This document shows, in pieces, positions 489-11,005 of a stretch of DNA of 50,610 nt. The notes under the pieces are model-generated. The model saw nothing but the letters and a program-made list of their open reading frames with translations, was not told the DNA's origin and made no database searches. The translations under genes and the position numbers were made by a program. The stretch's first letter is position 1. Each line of letters opens with the position of its first letter. Origin of the DNA: Acidilobaceae archaeon (lineage in GTDB: Archaea > Thermoproteota > Thermoprotei_A > Sulfolobales > Acidilobaceae); contig JALWPV010000061.1 in the NCBI GenBank assembly GCA_027080775.1, positions 1 through 50,610 on the forward strand, read 5' to 3'.

Positions 489-539
489 CCCCGAGCCCCC
501 CGTCTGGCCTGCGGGGTAGCCTCCGAGGAGCAACTCTAA

Positions 540-607
540 AACCAATATCATTTTATTTAAATTTTTGTTTAATAGTTTATTCTTACTATGATTAATTATC
601 GTTTAAT
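540..607. promoter_or_regulatory. AT-rich tract, possible promoter or termination zone
   Basis: About 68 nt of almost pure A/T in a GC-rich segment, with TTTATTTAAATTTTTG-like runs. It lies 50 nt past the ssb stop. T-runs on the plus strand suit transcription termination of ssb. TATA-like words (TTTATTTAAA, TTTAATAG) would also suit a plus-strand promoter for the structured segment that starts near 611. The sequence does not decide between these. Confidence 0.4.
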
Positions 608-610
608 CTT

Positions 611-868
611 TCCGAGTCCATTATTGCCGGGCCCAGGGGGACTAAGGCGACTTCAACCCTAGACACGGTGGATAACGCCTTTTCTTCAGGGGGATCCCGG
701 AGCGTGCCGTGGTTCGAGACTACACCTTGAGCGCATCGGGGCGGGTCGTGGAGGACCACTTCTTCACCCCTCCTCCGTGGACCGGGCAGGGGCTGCTTCA
801 TCCCCGCCCGCGCTGGAGGGGCGTATGGCTGGCGGGGTATAGTGTCTTGACGCCCCCTGGACCCGGAG
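611..868 (+). ncRNA. Candidate structured RNA (unassigned)
   Basis: Gene-free segment between convergent genes with nested complementarity. Bases 611-620 pair with 858-867 at 9 of 10 positions and 635-640 pair with 853-858, closing a domain of about 258 nt. Inside are AAGGCG (near 643-648) with CGCCTT (near 676-681), a hairpin from GGTC/GACC and GGAGGA/TCCTCC (744-783), and a hairpin GGGC-A-GGGG/CCCC-GCCC (about 784-809). The plus strand is chosen only because the AT-rich tract lies just upstream on that side. The conserved GAGGAAAGTC of RNase P RNA and the GGAA-loop core of SRP RNA were looked for on both strands and not found. Confidence 0.33.
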
Positions 869-2042: not shown

Positions 2043-3071
2043 CTAGCCTTTGAGGAGCCTCGAGGCTATGAAGTCGAGGAGCACCTCCCTAGCGCCCTCC
2101 CCTATGTCGAGGGCCCTCGAGTCCCTCGAGAGCCTCTCCGTGAGGCTCCACCGGGCCAGGCCCCTGCCGCCCATGAGCTGCGTGGCCACCCACGAGGCCC
2201 TCTGGGCGAGCCTGGCCCCCAGCACCTTAGCCATGGCTGCTCTCAGGGGATCCACGCGGCACCCCTCAGCGGCGCTGGCTGCCTCCCTAATCAGGGCCTC
2301 GAGGGCGCTGGCCTCGGCGGCGATCTCGGCTACCATCCACCTGGGCCCCTGGTACTCGCCCAGCGGCTTCCCGAAGACCCTGTGGCTCCTCATCCTCTCG
2401 AGGGCGGCCTCCAGGGCGCCCTCAACTATGCCCAGGGCGATGGCGGCGTAGCCGAGCCTGCCTACGTTAATAGCCTCGAGCGCCTCCCTCAGCCCCCTCC
2501 CAGGCGTGCCAGCCTCCACGGCCTCGGCGCCCCTATACTCGACCCTCGCAACCCCGGCTCCGCGGAGGGTTGTGAGGTCCATCGGCTCCACGCTGACTGC
2601 GCCGCTCCTCTCCGCGAGGTAAAGCGTCGGCCCCTCGGGCCCGCGGGCAAGCACCAGGAAGTACCTAGCGTACAGGGCGTTGCTAGTGAACACCTTCACA
2701 CCGGTAACCCTGTACCCGCCCCCGCTCGCCTCGGCCCGCGTCTCCAGGTTGCCAAGCACATCAGTCCCGCCACCCGGCTCCGTTATACTCACGGCAACGA
2801 TCCCCGGCTCCCCCACGAGGCGGCCCACCCTACACCAGGCGGTCCCATGGATGAGTATCACGTGGCCCACAGCGGGGGACGAGCGGCTGGCGAGCCTCAC
2901 AGCCTCCATGAGGGAGGGCAGCTCCCCAAGGCGGAACGCCCCCTCCTCCTCCAGCCTCGAGAGGAGCCCCTCGGGGACCCTGTTGTCCCTATCAATGGCC
3001 TCAGCCACCCCAGGCAGCTCCCCAAGGAGGAGATCCCTAAGCCCCCCCGGGATCGAGCCGAGAGAAGCCAT
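2043..3071 (-). CDS. Acyl-CoA dehydrogenase family protein
   Basis: FAD-dependent acyl-CoA dehydrogenase fold, 342 residues, somewhat short for the family (about 380). The middle beta domain has the SITEPGGGTD FAD/substrate loop. The C-terminal helical domain has RVFGKPLGEYQG and QLMGGRGL. A glutamate in IGEGAREV sits where the catalytic base (YEGT in MCAD) is expected. The N-terminal helical domain is reduced. It could serve fatty- or branched-acid oxidation with the thiolase at 4921-6105. I chose the ATG at 3071. The open frame continues upstream, but that extension runs antisense through tRNA-Leu and is not protein-like. GTG at 3077 is an alternative start. Confidence 0.85.
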   Translation of the reverse strand: MASLGSIPGGLRDLLLGELPGVAEAIDRDNRVPEGLLSRLEEEGAFRLGELPSLMEAVRLASRSSPAVGHVILIHGTAWCRVGRLVGEPGIVAVSITEPGGGTDVLGNLETRAEASGGGYRVTGVKVFTSNALYARYFLVLARGPEGPTLYLAERSGAVSVEPMDLTTLRGAGVARVEYRGAEAVEAGTPGRGLREALEAINVGRLGYAAIALGIVEGALEAALERMRSHRVFGKPLGEYQGPRWMVAEIAAEASALEALIREAASAAEGCRVDPLRAAMAKVLGARLAQRASWVATQLMGGRGLARWSLTERLSRDSRALDIGEGAREVLLDFIASRLLKG

Positions 3072-3109
3072 GACCACACACCACCCGCAAGGATGAGGCC
3101 AGGCGCTAC

Positions 3110-3117
3110 CATTAAAC
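3110..3117 (+). promoter_or_regulatory. TATA-like box of tRNA-Leu
   Basis: CATTAAAC about 33 nt before the mature 5' end of the tRNA, the usual spacing for an archaeal TATA box serving a tRNA gene. It lies between the divergent acyl-CoA dehydrogenase start and the tRNA. Confidence 0.45.
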
Positions 3118-3146
3118 CCTCGCCCAGCGCCGGGTATAGGCAGGGC

Positions 3147-3234
3147 GCGGGGGTGCCCGAGCCCGGCCAAAGGGGGCGGGCTCAAGACCCGTTGGCGTAG
3201 GCCTGCGTGGGTTCGAATCCCACCCCCCGCACCA
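3147..3234 (+). tRNA. tRNA-Leu, anticodon CAA
   Basis: Class II tRNA with acceptor arms GCGGGGG and CCCCCGC, an anticodon loop CTCAAGA giving anticodon CAA at 3183-3185 (reads UUG), a long variable arm and a T-arm GTGGG-TTCGAAT-CCCAC. The 3' CCA is encoded at 3232-3234. No intron is seen in the anticodon loop. Two compositionally odd genes lie directly 3' of it, a common position for integrated elements. Confidence 0.95.
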
Positions 3235-3308
3235 CATAGCCTGTCCCCTAGTTGCCGAAACCGCGTGTAGAAGGCTGTGTGAAACCTGTTGGTAAATAGC
3301 GTGATAGC

Positions 3309-4034
3309 TTGTTTCACTCCACCCCACGCCTATGCAGGGTGGCGCCCCCCGTGGGAGATGCGGCTAGCTCATCCCCGAGGATATTGGTGGATAAGCTCGC
3401 GTTAACTGGTAGAGACCTAAACCTGGCGGCCCAGATTCCCCGAGGGATTAACAGTATAGCAGGGGCCACATTCAAGCATGCATTCCTGAACTCGGCTATC
3501 GAGAGGCTGGCTCACGCCATGCTGAACAAGCTGTCATCAATTATTAGTAATGCAGGCGGCAAAATTTACTCTAAATACTCCTACACGGCGGAAGACGAGA
3601 AGGCTGTAGCCGTCTTGAAATACTCGGCTCCTTGGGGCACTCCGGCTTATCGAGTGGTGGTAGTGGTTGGCAGTGCATTATCGAAAAGGGGGCTCCGCGG
3701 ATGGGTCAGGATGCATTCCTATATCATGTATTACCTAGTGGTGCCCGAAGCCATGCATAGTAGGCTAGACTTCATAAAGCCACGTATAAAAAGAGCGGTG
3801 CCAGCCAATGGCGTGGTGGCAGCGGCTACCTACCCAGCCGAGGCGGGAGTGCATAAGCCAGAGACGCTGAAGTGTTATGGCGCTTCCGGCGTCCTTAGGG
3901 AGTACAGGAGCAGGTACATAGTTTTCATACCGCCCATAATAGCTTGGCGCTTCTCGAGGTGGATACACTTCGATCCCCATTATACCTATGAGCTAGAGGG
4001 GTGCCGGAGCATTGAAGAAGCGGTCGCCCAGTGA
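3309..4034 (+). CDS. Hypothetical protein, AT-richer than its neighbours
   Basis: 241 residues if started at TTG 3309; TTG or GTG near 3384-3390 (before DKLALTGRD) are shorter options preceded by a GAGGAT-like ribosome site. I do not recognise a family. The mid-part has a run of hydrophobic beta strands (YRVVVVVGSAL, YIMYYLVVPEA) and the C-terminal part is tyrosine/tryptophan-rich. No signal peptide. Base composition and codon choice (more A/T third positions) differ from the surrounding genes. It overlaps the next gene by 23 nt, so the two are probably co-translated. Placed immediately after tRNA-Leu, it may belong to an integrated or degraded mobile element. Confidence 0.6.
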   Translation: MFHSTPRLCRVAPPVGDAASSSPRILVDKLALTGRDLNLAAQIPRGINSIAGATFKHAFLNSAIERLAHAMLNKLSSIISNAGGKIYSKYSYTAEDEKAVAVLKYSAPWGTPAYRVVVVVGSALSKRGLRGWVRMHSYIMYYLVVPEAMHSRLDFIKPRIKRAVPANGVVAAATYPAEAGVHKPETLKCYGASGVLREYRSRYIVFIPPIIAWRFSRWIHFDPHYTYELEGCRSIEEAVAQ

Positions 4035-6105: not shown

Positions 6106-6173
6106 GCCCTGCACCCCACAGCCACCATAGCCGCGGGCCTGCAGGGGGAAAACAGTGCCACACCATGAGAGGG

Positions 6174-6181
6174 CTATACAC
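6174..6181 (-). promoter_or_regulatory. TATA-like box upstream of thiolase
   Basis: GTGTATAG on the minus strand, about 70 nt before the thiolase start. The half-site cluster at 6201-6267 begins about 20 nt further upstream, where an archaeal activator would bind. Confidence 0.4.
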
Positions 6182-6200
6182 ACGCGAGGAGCCGGGGCCA

Positions 6201-6267
6201 GGTTGTGTTAAGGGGCGCTTAACACAACCAGACCCATGGTTCAGGTTGAGTTATGGTAGAGTTAGGA
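6201..6267. promoter_or_regulatory. Cluster of palindromic half-sites upstream of thiolase
   Basis: A perfect inverted repeat has arms GGTTGTGTTAAG (6201-6212) and CTTAACACAACC (6218-6229) around GGGCG. The same word recurs as GGTTGAGTTA (6244-6253) and GGTAGAGTTA (6256-6265). Four related copies in 67 nt look like an operator for a dimeric regulator. No regulator gene is adjacent. Acyl-CoA-responsive TetR-family regulators of archaeal fatty-acid genes bind palindromes of this size, but the link here is inference. Confidence 0.5.
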
Positions 6268-6464
6268 TCCACCCAGTTGAACCCAGCCTAACAGCGCGCC
6301 CCGAGGCGTGCCAGGAAGGCATAGATGGCACCCAGGCCCTCAGCCCCTCAGGTGCTACCGCCTAGTGCGTGGAGCCCCGATTCTGGCGCCTGCGAGCTAT
6401 ACCAGGGGCCCCCGGCCGGCTTCCCTGCTGATGGGGTGCGATACCGCGTTATGCAAGGTATGCA

Positions 6465-6545
6465 TTAGTAATATAGTAAAATCTACACAATAAATTTAGT
6501 TTTTATATTATTAGTATTAAAATTAATAAAGGGATGTATTATTGG
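6465..6545. promoter_or_regulatory. AT-rich tract with TATA-like words
   Basis: About 80 nt of A/T-rich sequence including TTTTTATATTATTAG near 6499-6512, inside a gene-free stretch of nearly 1 kb. If the TATATTA word is a TATA box, plus-strand transcription would begin near 6530-6545, at the border of the GC-rich structured segment. The 6268-6464 stretch to its left holds no gene that I can support. Confidence 0.38.
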
Positions 6546-6548
6546 ATC

Positions 6549-7030
6549 CCTCTAGGCACTCCCCAGGGGTGCCCCCGAGCTAGCTAGCCGCCCCTCCAGG
6601 GGCATGCGTGGGCTCTCATGGTAATACTTGGATCAGCTGTCCTCCCTCCATTGGAGCGGAGGTAGTACCGACCCAAGCACGCGGGGCTGGTCGCTCCTCC
6701 CTCGAGCTTGCTGGAGGGGGTGCTGTAGGGGCCTGGGAGGCGGGCCCGTAACACCCTCATTCTATTTATTGAGAGAATGTGGGTCTTCCCTGCCCCCGTG
6801 AACCGGCAGCCAGCACCGAGGACCAGGCGGGAGTGGGGCCTTACAGCTCATCCATGCGGGGGCCCGGGAATGGGCCTGCTATCGGGTTCACGGGCTGGTC
6901 CATGCACCCGTGCACGGCCCGCTCTAGGGACCCGGCGGCCGGGCGATGGATCCTCCCGCGGCCCTGCGGGCGTTGACGCCGTGCAATCCCTGGGAGAATG
7001 CACGAGCAGCGTCACCCCAGCTTGGGGTAC
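6549..7030 (+). ncRNA. Candidate structured RNA region (unassigned)
   Basis: No coding frame looks real here, yet complementarity is dense. One nested arm at 6606-6682 combines GCGTG/CACGC, GGG/CCC, GGTA-ACT/AGTACC, CCTCC/GGAGG and CTCC/GGAG. A hairpin CCC-t-CATTCT/AGAATG-t-GGG spans 6754-6783. A perfect 10-bp helix joins 6795-6804 to 6885-6894 (CCCGTGAACC/GGTTCACGGG). Bases 6974-6985 pair with 6999-7004 and 7009-7014 around a 4-nt bulge, then ACCCC/GGGGT at 7014-7028. Strand and ends are inferred from the AT-rich tract upstream. RNase P and SRP RNA signatures were not found. It may be more than one RNA. Confidence 0.35.
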
Positions 7031-7092
7031 GGGTGTCAGCCGGGTAGTACTCCCTAGCAGCCCCTAGGAGGCCCCGGGGGCGCGTTTAGGCT

Positions 7093-7383
7093 TTGGAGGC
7101 GAGCGCCTTGTCGGCGGCCGTGGAGGGCGAGAGGACCCCCATCCAGGGGGGCTTCAGCTTCATAGTGATGGACGAGCTCGGCGTCCACGTGGCCCCCTCG
7201 CTGGGCCCTGTTGAGGATGGCAAGCTCGAGGGCCTCGTGAGGTTCCTCTACAGGGTCCTGGACGCCCTGGAGAGGGCTGGGGCGAGGAATGTGAGGCTAG
7301 AGGTAGACTGGGACGGCGGCATGGTTGTCGTGAAGAGGGGTAGGAACGTGGTTTACGGGGTCTACGCCCGCGGCGAGCACTAG
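7093..7383 (+). CDS. Small conserved-looking hypothetical protein
   Basis: 96 residues from TTG 7093, ending 4 nt inside the convergent tRNA-binding gene. It has an alternating strand/helix pattern: FSFIVMDELGVHV, a helix LVRFLYRVLDALERAG, then VRLEVDWDGGMVVVKRG and VVYGVYARG. This resembles small alpha/beta regulatory folds of the roadblock type, but I cannot assign it. No membrane segment or cysteine. Codon use agrees with neighbours, so it is probably a real cytosolic protein. Confidence 0.55.
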   Translation: MEASALSAAVEGERTPIQGGFSFIVMDELGVHVAPSLGPVEDGKLEGLVRFLYRVLDALERAGARNVRLEVDWDGGMVVVKRGRNVVYGVYARGEH

Positions 7384-7721: not shown

Positions 7722-7892
7722 TCCAGCCACCCCGGCCCCCGGGCTTGGGTGGGCCTCAGCTATTAGGCTCTCCCCACCTCCAGGTATGGGGCCGTGACGA
7801 CCCCAGGCGACCCCGAGCCCCATGGGGGGCTGTGAGGAGTTCAGCCTTGACCGAGCCTTTTGCGTCTGCGAGGAGACTTGTATCGGAGAACT

Positions 7893-7918
7893 TCATATTT
7901 ACACAAAGGAGATAAAAG
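7893..7918 (+). promoter_or_regulatory. Promoter of the bd oxidase operon
   Basis: Two TATA-like words, TCATATTTA (7893-7901) and GATAAAAG (7911-7918), lie 40-65 nt before the CydA start at 7957. The second would place transcription start around 7940, giving a short leader. Confidence 0.45.
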
Positions 7919-7956
7919 CTAGAACCCACTTCAGGGAGGATGCGGGTGCTGTCTCA

Positions 7957-9741
7957 GTGGCCGAGGGGCTACTCGGCCAATGGCTCCACGCATATCCAGC
8001 TGGCCACCTGAGGGTCCTATCACTCGTGGGGATAGAGGTACACTGGGCCATACTACAGTACGTCCTAGGCCTCTCATTCCTAGCATTCGTGGCTAGGCTC
8101 ATCTACCTCAGGACCCATAACGAGCACTGGGAGCGCCTCACCAGGACGCTGGTCAAGGGCTTCATATTAATGTTCGCACTCGGCGCAGCCACGGGCACCG
8201 CTGCGGAGTTTGGCCTCGTACTCCTATGGCCGAACCTCACGGAGGCCGCGGGCGACTTCATATACTTCCCGCTCTACGCGGAGATATTCGCGTTCATTAT
8301 GGAGGTAGTGTTTCTATACATGATGTGGTACGGCTGGGGCAAGCTATCCCTCAAGGCGCACACGGCAATACTATTCCTAGGCATGGCGGGCGCCTGGTAC
8401 TCAGCGGCAATGATAGTAAGCGTTAACGCTTACATGGTAGCCCCCACGGGGATAATGCCAGCCTATAACACCACGACGTGGCACTTCATGTACGCGGAGG
8501 GCTACCCCAAGTTCACACTCCACGTGCCACTGAAGCTAATCCTAGAGCTACCCAACGGATCCAAGGTGTCGATACCGACCCTAAAGCTACTCAACATACC
8601 CCTTCTAGAGAAGGCCGGTATGACCGTTGTGGGCATGAATAAAGCAGGTAACGCTGTGGTAGTAGAGATGCCGGTAAGAATCGTTCAGAGGCTCGTCTTC
8701 GAGATGTATAGGGGCTACACGGTGAAGGATAGCATACTCCAGTTCGTCGTGAACAAGACCTACGTGCAAGAGCACGCGAGCCTCGCGCCGATACTACTCA
8801 ACACACCCGTGAAGAGCATCGTAGAGCCCATTGTAAAGCAGACAGTAAGGGATGAGGGTGTCTACTCGGTTACATTCAAGAGCCCCGTCTACTGGGCGAG
8901 CATAATACACGTCTACGGTGCAGCCGTTACCACGAGCGCCTTCACGCTCATGGGGGCCTACGCTATAAGGTACCTCCAGTACAGGAACAGGCGCGACGAA
9001 GACTACCTGGAGTACGTGAGGAAGGCCTTCGCCTTCGCAGCCGTCACAGGCCTCATAGTGATAGCGGTTCAGGGCCTAGTCCTAGGCCACGAGATGGGCC
9101 GCGCCATAGCAATCTACAACCCCGAGAAGCTCGCGGCCATGGAGGCCACCACTAGTCAGCTAAAGCACACGATGACCGGCCCCTTCAGGAGCCTCTTCGA
9201 GGACAAGCTAATGCCACTCCTAGCCTATGGTAGCATGCACGCTAAACTCCCGAGCTACGATGCAATACCGAAGGACTACTGCTACTGCAAGCTCTCAGAT
9301 AAGCTGCACCAGATGAACCCCTCGATACCCAGCGACGCCATGAGGGGCCTGGTTGACTGCAGGCCGCCCCTAATAGTGCACTACCTCTACTATGGCAAGG
9401 TGTACCTAGCTGTACTGCTGGGCCTCTACGCCCTCGCAGCAGTGTACTACGTGTGGAGGGGCTGGCCCAACTTCAACCTGCCTGGATGGATAAGCAAGCC
9501 GGGCTACGCCATGCCGATACTGATCCAGCTGGTCAGCTTCCTAGGCTGGGCCACGAGGGAGATAGGCAGGAAGCCCTGGACGATCTACGGCGTGATGACC
9601 GTTGACACGGCGCAGACCGTTAACCCGCCGAGCACCGGGGAGGTGACGCTGGTGGCCGTGTACCTCATAGGCCTCCTCATACTCCTAGCCTACGGTGTCT
9701 ACAGGATCCTCTGGGTACCCGGGAACCCTGAGAAGGCCTAG
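7957..9741 (+). CDS. cydA: Cytochrome bd-type quinol oxidase subunit I (CydA)
   Basis: Membrane quinol:O2 oxidoreductase subunit, 594 residues from GTG 7957. Compared by eye with E. coli CydA: His29 matches His19, Glu109/Glu116 match the E99/E107 pair, His318 matches the b558 ligand His186, GHEMGR (377-382) and KLAA match the following loop, and GRKPW (537-541) matches GRQPW. Between the fourth and fifth helices lies an outer insertion of about 145 residues (163-310) absent from E. coli. The Met393 position appears to be Leu/Val. The later loop holds Cys442, Cys444 and Cys468. The frame opens upstream, but that N-terminal extension lacks family similarity. Partner: the next gene. Confidence 0.88.
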   Translation: MAEGLLGQWLHAYPAGHLRVLSLVGIEVHWAILQYVLGLSFLAFVARLIYLRTHNEHWERLTRTLVKGFILMFALGAATGTAAEFGLVLLWPNLTEAAGDFIYFPLYAEIFAFIMEVVFLYMMWYGWGKLSLKAHTAILFLGMAGAWYSAAMIVSVNAYMVAPTGIMPAYNTTTWHFMYAEGYPKFTLHVPLKLILELPNGSKVSIPTLKLLNIPLLEKAGMTVVGMNKAGNAVVVEMPVRIVQRLVFEMYRGYTVKDSILQFVVNKTYVQEHASLAPILLNTPVKSIVEPIVKQTVRDEGVYSVTFKSPVYWASIIHVYGAAVTTSAFTLMGAYAIRYLQYRNRRDEDYLEYVRKAFAFAAVTGLIVIAVQGLVLGHEMGRAIAIYNPEKLAAMEATTSQLKHTMTGPFRSLFEDKLMPLLAYGSMHAKLPSYDAIPKDYCYCKLSDKLHQMNPSIPSDAMRGLVDCRPPLIVHYLYYGKVYLAVLLGLYALAAVYYVWRGWPNFNLPGWISKPGYAMPILIQLVSFLGWATREIGRKPWTIYGVMTVDTAQTVNPPSTGEVTLVAVYLIGLLILLAYGVYRILWVPGNPEKA

Positions 9742-9754
9742 GGGGTGATGGCGT

Positions 9755-11005
9755 GTGGCTAGCACCCTGAACCCGGCTACATTCTGGCTCGCCTTCACCT
9801 TCGGCGCCCACATAATGATGGTCAACCTCTCAGTCGGACTCCCACCCCTGATGGTCTACTACCGCAACAAGGGGGTCAGGGATCCGAGGTTCGAGTACGT
9901 AGCCAGGAGCATGACGAGGGTCTACGCCGCCATATACGGCCTCGCCGGGGTATTTGCTACCGCGTTCACAGTGTTCCTGCTCAGCTTCTACCCGAAGTTC
10001 ATAGGCCTTGCAGGCCACGTGGCACTCATACCGTTCAGCATATCAATCATGATGATAGCGCTACACTTCCTCATGCTGGCTCTCTACTGGTATGGCTGGG
10101 ATCGCTGGAGCCTCACGGCCCACAACGTGATAGGAACGCTGCTAGTGATATCGGCCTTCCTAATACCCTTCGGCTTCAGGGCCGTCTTCGCCTTCCTCAA
10201 CATACCCACAGGGCTGCACTTCGACGCGGCGCAGGGCAAGTTCTACCTGAGCGTATCGGAGTTCCTAGCTCACAACCCGACCTTCTGGCCATTCTACCTC
10301 AAGACAATAGTCGGGGCTCTAACGGCTACATTCGTCGTCGTGGCAGCCGGCTACGCATACCGCTACACGCACAGCGAAGGCCTAGTAAAGGAGGCCTCTG
10401 GCATCGTTGTCAGACAGATGCTAGGTCCGGCCCTCGTAGGTCTTGTAGCGATGTTCTTCCTCGGGCTCTGGTACGCGCTAAGCCTAATGAACATACCATA
10501 CAAGTTCAATAACATATTCGGCGGCTTCGGCTGGAAGGTGGGGGACGGCGTTGTCACCTACAACTTCTCGTGGGCCTTTGCGCTGAAGATGTTCTTCTAT
10601 CTCTCACAGCTAGTTATAGTAGCACTGGCTTACAAGGCGGTGCGGCGCGAGACGGAGGCGATAGCGCCCCGCGCAAAGTACCTCCTCTATGCTGGCTTCT
10701 CGGCCCTGGCGACCATAGTTACTGGCGAGTACCTGAACGCGTTCAGCCAGTACCCATGGTTCATCGCGGCCGTGACCGACAAGAAGGTGGTAGCCAGCCT
10801 GCTGGCAGAGGTGCCACCGCAGTCCCGCGGCGAGGTCGCATCATATTTACTCCAGGTACTCGACCTCAGGAACTATAACACAATAGCAACGCTACCCGGG
10901 GTCACGTGGCTAACTGCTGGCTTCCTGGCGTTCCTGATAGCGGCAGCGTTCTACTTCGTCTATGTGCTACTACTCAAGCCAGGGGGCAGCGAGTCAAGCT
11001 ACTAG
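9755..11005 (+). CDS. Second CydA-like subunit (CydA' type)
   Basis: 416 residues, polytopic, starting GTG 9755 after a GGTGATG ribosome site, 13 nt behind cydA. It is a shortened CydA paralogue, not CydB: the first helix keeps the histidine (FGAHIMMVNLSVGLPP, His19), and WYGWDRWSLTAH matches the CydA WYGWGKLSLKAH. The acidic pair is lost (one position is His), and the b558 histidine position is Lys in PFYLKTIVG. Archaeal bd-type enzymes with a CydA' partner instead of CydB have been described; this pair fits that type. CydA' probably gives structural support and proton access, not heme ligation. Confidence 0.85.
   Translation: MASTLNPATFWLAFTFGAHIMMVNLSVGLPPLMVYYRNKGVRDPRFEYVARSMTRVYAAIYGLAGVFATAFTVFLLSFYPKFIGLAGHVALIPFSISIMMIALHFLMLALYWYGWDRWSLTAHNVIGTLLVISAFLIPFGFRAVFAFLNIPTGLHFDAAQGKFYLSVSEFLAHNPTFWPFYLKTIVGALTATFVVVAAGYAYRYTHSEGLVKEASGIVVRQMLGPALVGLVAMFFLGLWYALSLMNIPYKFNNIFGGFGWKVGDGVVTYNFSWAFALKMFFYLSQLVIVALAYKAVRRETEAIAPRAKYLLYAGFSALATIVTGEYLNAFSQYPWFIAAVTDKKVVASLLAEVPPQSRGEVASYLLQVLDLRNYNTIATLPGVTWLTAGFLAFLIAAAFYFVYVLLLKPGGSESSY

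Follow-up and report, generated by a model that had tools for sequence, protein, structure and literature searches.

A noncoding region restricted to one Acidilobaceae genus, beside a thiolase gene and tentatively read as a DNA control region

In the genome of an Acidilobaceae archaeon, a gene-free stretch upstream of a thiolase gene is read here, tentatively and with a probability of roughly 0.4, as a noncoding control region restricted to one genus and carrying a rightward TATA promoter. The window, that is, the whole stretch of DNA analysed, is 50,610 nucleotides long (contig C61 of the source genome G000, JALWPV010000061.1), has a GC content of 61% and comes from a genome of about 1.78 Mb. 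A sequence-only reading had singled out the longest gene-free stretch of the window as the seat of a possible structured RNA of up to about 480 nt (6549-7030). By the approximate gene list the stretch is indeed the longest (6106-7092, 987 bp); an RNA of about 480 nt is not supported. The left neighbour is the thiolase gene, on the minus strand, and the right neighbour is a small ORF (7093-7383, plus strand) that converges with the metG-beta gene. Within the stretch, ORF 6777-7067 was rejected as protein-coding: it has no family match, its differences from the congener G002 fall across codon positions, and it has no counterpart in the congener G003. The sequence GGGTGTCAGCCGGGTAGTAC at 7030-7052 resembles by eye the 530-loop region of archaeal 16S rRNA, presumably by chance. 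The features of the stretch are as follows:

6106-7092, no strand: gene-free stretch from the thiolase start (minus) to ORF 7093-7383 (plus), delimited by the ORF list and family searches
6203-6228, no strand: palindrome around TTGTGTTAAGGGGCGCTTAACACAA, near-identical in G003, 20-50 bp from a TATA-like element
6437-6563, no strand: AT-rich tract, 80-bp GC minimum 14%; its G003 homologue lies at about 2121-2200 of locus L010
6451-6683, no strand: block homologous in G003 at about 52% identity with at most one indel; 6451-6612 is ungapped at 53%, and the arm follows
6605-6683, plus strand: 79-nt arm, with outer helix 6605-6610/6678-6683 and inner helix 6620-6629/6660-6669
6620-6628, plus strand: near-palindrome GGTAATACT of the GGTRNTACC type, homologous to L010 2295
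6661-6669, plus strand: near-palindrome GGTAGTACC, 41 bp past the first copy, with equal spacing in G003
6747-6755, minus strand: weaker motif copy GGTGTTACG, 86 bp further on (85 bp in G003)

The region is present only in congeners; a DNA match in G024 was discarded as an orthologue, since it joins AT-rich DNA of two unrelated ORFs. The G003 counterpart is locus L010, which is identical to G003:C129. It retains the start of the thiolase gene, the palindrome of that gene and the AT tract, but the metG block is inverted there and a convergent gene with a peroxiredoxin-like translation lies on the right, so that the homologous block travels with the thiolase gene rather than forming a leader of its right-hand neighbour. 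The ungapped homology over 6451-6612 scored 38.9 against a maximum of 23.5 for shuffled sequences; a shift of one base then leads into the arm, and past about 6683 the identity drops towards background. G002 is about 96% identical to G000 across the region. Over 6615-7054 the two show 8 differences in about 440 bp, compared with 4-5% for most of the flanking DNA, and 6628-6778 is free of substitutions although the flanking rate predicts about 6. The contrast in constraint is only modest, since cydA on the right side shows an equally low divergence from G002 (1.8%). At 7822-11005, cytochrome bd oxidase subunit I domains occur in two neighbouring genes, 7822-9741 and 9755-11005.

The argument for a control region turns on what has been kept in this block. 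Over about 230 bp there is at most one indel at an identity of only about 52%, the motif copies keep their spacing (first interval 41 bp, about four helical turns, in both species; second interval 86 bp in G000 and 85 bp in G003), and the site pair is unique; each of these supports the control-region reading. So do the two sequence-conserved noncoding elements that adjoin the thiolase start, the low G002 divergence in 6615-7054 and the ordinary plus-strand fold. The repeated sites stand at a kept spacing near a putative promoter in both species, as in an operator array. The GGTRNTACC motif was recognised by inspection and the way in which the pattern of the pair was built entails its presence in the three congeners; its single copy in each of G000, G002 and G003 and its absence from the other 45 of 48 family genomes are not entailed. 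Genome-wide the motif is not enriched (133 matches vs 174 for a control pattern), so no regulon is visible and a genome-wide regulon was rejected. Motif sites on the left side of the AT tract were considered but are not claimed as conserved, the exact copies there lying at non-homologous positions.

According to the control-region reading, the conserved core (6451-6683) would consist of the AT tract, in which a TATA-like box points rightward, and of the paired GGTRNTACC sites that come after it. The AT-rich tract with TATATTA reported from the sequence is there as the low-GC stretch 6437-6563, and it holds a single TTTATA box (about 6502-6508) on the plus strand only. A dimeric DNA-binding protein may occupy the phased sites beside this AT-rich promoter and, once bound, could control transcription from the AT tract and possibly also that of the divergent thiolase gene. 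The latter gene's own promoter would be marked by the palindrome at 6203-6228, which is probably the operator of the thiolase promoter; the TATA-like element of the gene, close to the palindrome, is conserved, and the exact core of the palindrome is found in the three congeners only. On this view the RNA helices would be a side effect of near-palindromes rich in GC. Homology, kept spacing, the uniqueness of the site pair and ordinary folding are established; protein binding, promoter activity and the regulated target are inferred. The reading is weakened by the way the motif was recognised, namely by inspection, by its lack of enrichment, and by the thiolase genes of other family members, upstream of which the arrangement was not found. 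Should it hold, this would be a regulatory intergenic region of an ordinary kind in a hyperthermophile lineage, though one of unusual length.

All the helices that had suggested a 480-nt RNA can be drawn: the arm at about 6606-6682, a hairpin within 6754-6783 (CATTCT/AGAATG) and two further helices:

6795-6804/6885-6894, plus strand: perfect 10-bp helix, outside the region homologous in G003
6974-7014, plus strand: 12-bp helix with a 4-nt bulge, whose A6976-T7012 pair is broken in G002

They are no more than chance would provide in this DNA. The plus-strand minimum free energy of 6549-7030 has z = -1.16, 12 of 100 shuffles folding equally well or better, and the minus strand has z = -2.90; among 102 segments of the same length taken window-wide on both strands, the mean z is -0.75, with 28% reaching -1.16 and 5% reaching -2.9. 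Folding on the plus strand is therefore inside the window background, and 15.5% of shuffles contain a perfect 10-bp inverted repeat within 120 nt. Two of the proposed helices have pairs broken in G002, by 6779 G>C in the hairpin and by 7012 T>C in the bulged helix. Three of the four, namely the hairpin and the helices at 6795/6885 and 6974-7014, have no G003 counterpart because homology fades past about 6683. Judging from these alignments, the 480-nt unit is not conserved within the genus; what survives of the proposal is the arm at 6605-6683. Helix lists drawn up from GC-rich archaeal DNA need such a background, as roughly one in four random segments of this window folds equally well.

These same results bear on the idea that the region is an unconstrained spacer, folding because it is GC-rich and homologous by simple descent. 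Fold energies inside the window background would fit it, as would the missing G003 counterpart of the right-hand half and an identity to G003 over 6549-6800 hardly above that of shuffled alignments (49% vs 45%). However, a spacer would not be expected to go almost without indels over some 230 bp that have diverged to half identity, to hold its motif spacing, or to escape substitution throughout 6628-6778 in G002, and we consider this explanation distinctly unlikely.

A search of the region with Rfam gave no match, and a permissive search returned chance-level matches only; the archaeal models for SRP RNA (RF01857) and RNase P RNA (RF00373) found nothing in it, which agrees with the earlier remark that the signatures of both RNAs are absent. 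The two RNAs are encoded elsewhere in the source genome. RNase P RNA is at G000:C28:182477-182800, which removes the region as a candidate for it. A divergent SRP RNA was attractive as long as RF01857 found none in G000, and was excluded by a copy at the end of contig C72 (L141 1528-1650, a truncated model match), to which the SRP RNA of G003 is 88% identical; the gene is cut by the contig end and was therefore missed by the genome search with the Rfam model. Both RNAs resemble the region in size class, being GC-rich structured RNAs of about 300 nt or more, but differ from it in that they are 93% (RNase P) and 88% (SRP) identical between G000 and G003, against about 50% for the region.

The main rival, which we regard as rather unlikely, is a small, fast-evolving structured RNA, some 100-250 nt long, whose transcription would run rightward from the TATA box of the AT tract and whose conserved core would be the arm. 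We compared the G000 and G003 consensus fold with a null in which substitutions were permuted among alignment columns. For 6549-6800 on the plus strand, none of 300 permutations was as good in two of three alignments, but the third gave p 0.22, so that with one alignment method there was no signal over the larger region. The minus strand and an adjacent noncoding control were silent in this test. With the motif copies masked, the signal persisted under a shuffle null. In the strictly homologous block, p was 0.0075-0.03 on the plus strand and 0.82-0.83 on the minus strand (three alignments, two of them identical); the count of two-sided changes in this block was, however, close to the null. As a reference, the same permutation test gave z of -6.6 to -9.8 for pairs of SRP RNAs at 60-65% identity, above the level of the signal here, and -3.0 for RNase P RNA at 78%. 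We treat the plus-strand signal as suggestive, since essentially two independent sequences were available and several tests were made; it is modest and varies with the alignment. A DNA-only view does not predict even this modest pair-preserving signal, which weakens the control-region reading.

The arm itself speaks both ways. It is equally long in G003 (L010 2280-2358) and free of indels between the two species, its outer helix carries three two-sided changes, and pair-preserving changes occur in both helices, including several compatible one-sided ones. The plus-strand-only TATA-like box also agrees with a small RNA. Folded as single sequences, G003 prefers the arm, most of its pair probabilities lying at 0.7-0.99, but G000 does not (0.00-0.26), and the lack of an Rfam match, together with the much higher identity of genuine RNAs of the genus, counts against an RNA. 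The inner helix is made by pairing the two GGTRNTACC copies, and a DNA-level element accounts for such conserved near-palindromes about as well as a small RNA does. The corresponding form of the RNA reading, a lineage-specific structured RNA of one Acidilobaceae genus that starts from the AT tract and evolves so rapidly that it has kept only the 79-nt arm and the spacing, is in our estimate unlikely. Were the arm to prove an RNA, that RNA would evolve fast, be confined to one genus and be of a kind invisible to RNA-family libraries.

An AT-rich tract ringed by repeated sites is also the look of an archaeal replication origin, in which an AT-rich element has origin recognition boxes (ORBs) on its flanks (PMC4010727). 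Archaeal replication origins also include the ucm element (PMC12141716). A chromosomal origin, with the tract as the unwinding element and initiator sites flanking it, would fit the rarity of such tracts in the genome parts examined: the window has only one other, and no comparable tract was found in other G000 segments examined, including the flanks of the RNase P RNA, SRP RNA and orc1 genes. The repeated motifs nearby would fit too, as would the orc1 loci (L150, L152, L166 and L167), alongside which there is no strongly AT-rich tract and no array of A. pernix-type ORB-like sites. Unlike known origins, though, the region carries no ORBs. We built a matrix from four sites of A. pernix Ori1, an origin region whose published coordinates (PMC8287685) delimit a sequence with the expected four; the best score in the region was 8.3, below the best of the window background (12.4); the genuine A. 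pernix sites reach 26-32. No A. pernix-type ORB thus rises above the window background, and a canonical Orc1/ORB-type origin was rejected. Nor is there an orc1/cdc6 gene on the contig, the orc1 genes being on C28 and C11, and GC skew shows no clear change. An origin here seems very improbable. The second AT tract of the window (516-632, 80-bp GC minimum 16%) lies between ORF 39-488, which runs rightward, and ORF 882-1994, which runs leftward, and may be a two-way terminator.

For the control region that we prefer, a parallel within the Thermoproteota is offered by FadR of Sulfolobus acidocaldarius and the promoters and operators that serve fatty-acid and beta-oxidation genes (PMC6449355). As there, noncoding DNA with palindromes lies beside thiolase and acyl-CoA dehydrogenase genes; the likeness is one of layout. 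The acyl-CoA dehydrogenase gene of the window is ORF 2043-3317, whose N-terminal part is overlapped on the opposite strand by a tRNA-Leu (CAA) gene at 3147-3234. The start of this ORF is doubtful because homology to the family begins only at about residue 149-174.
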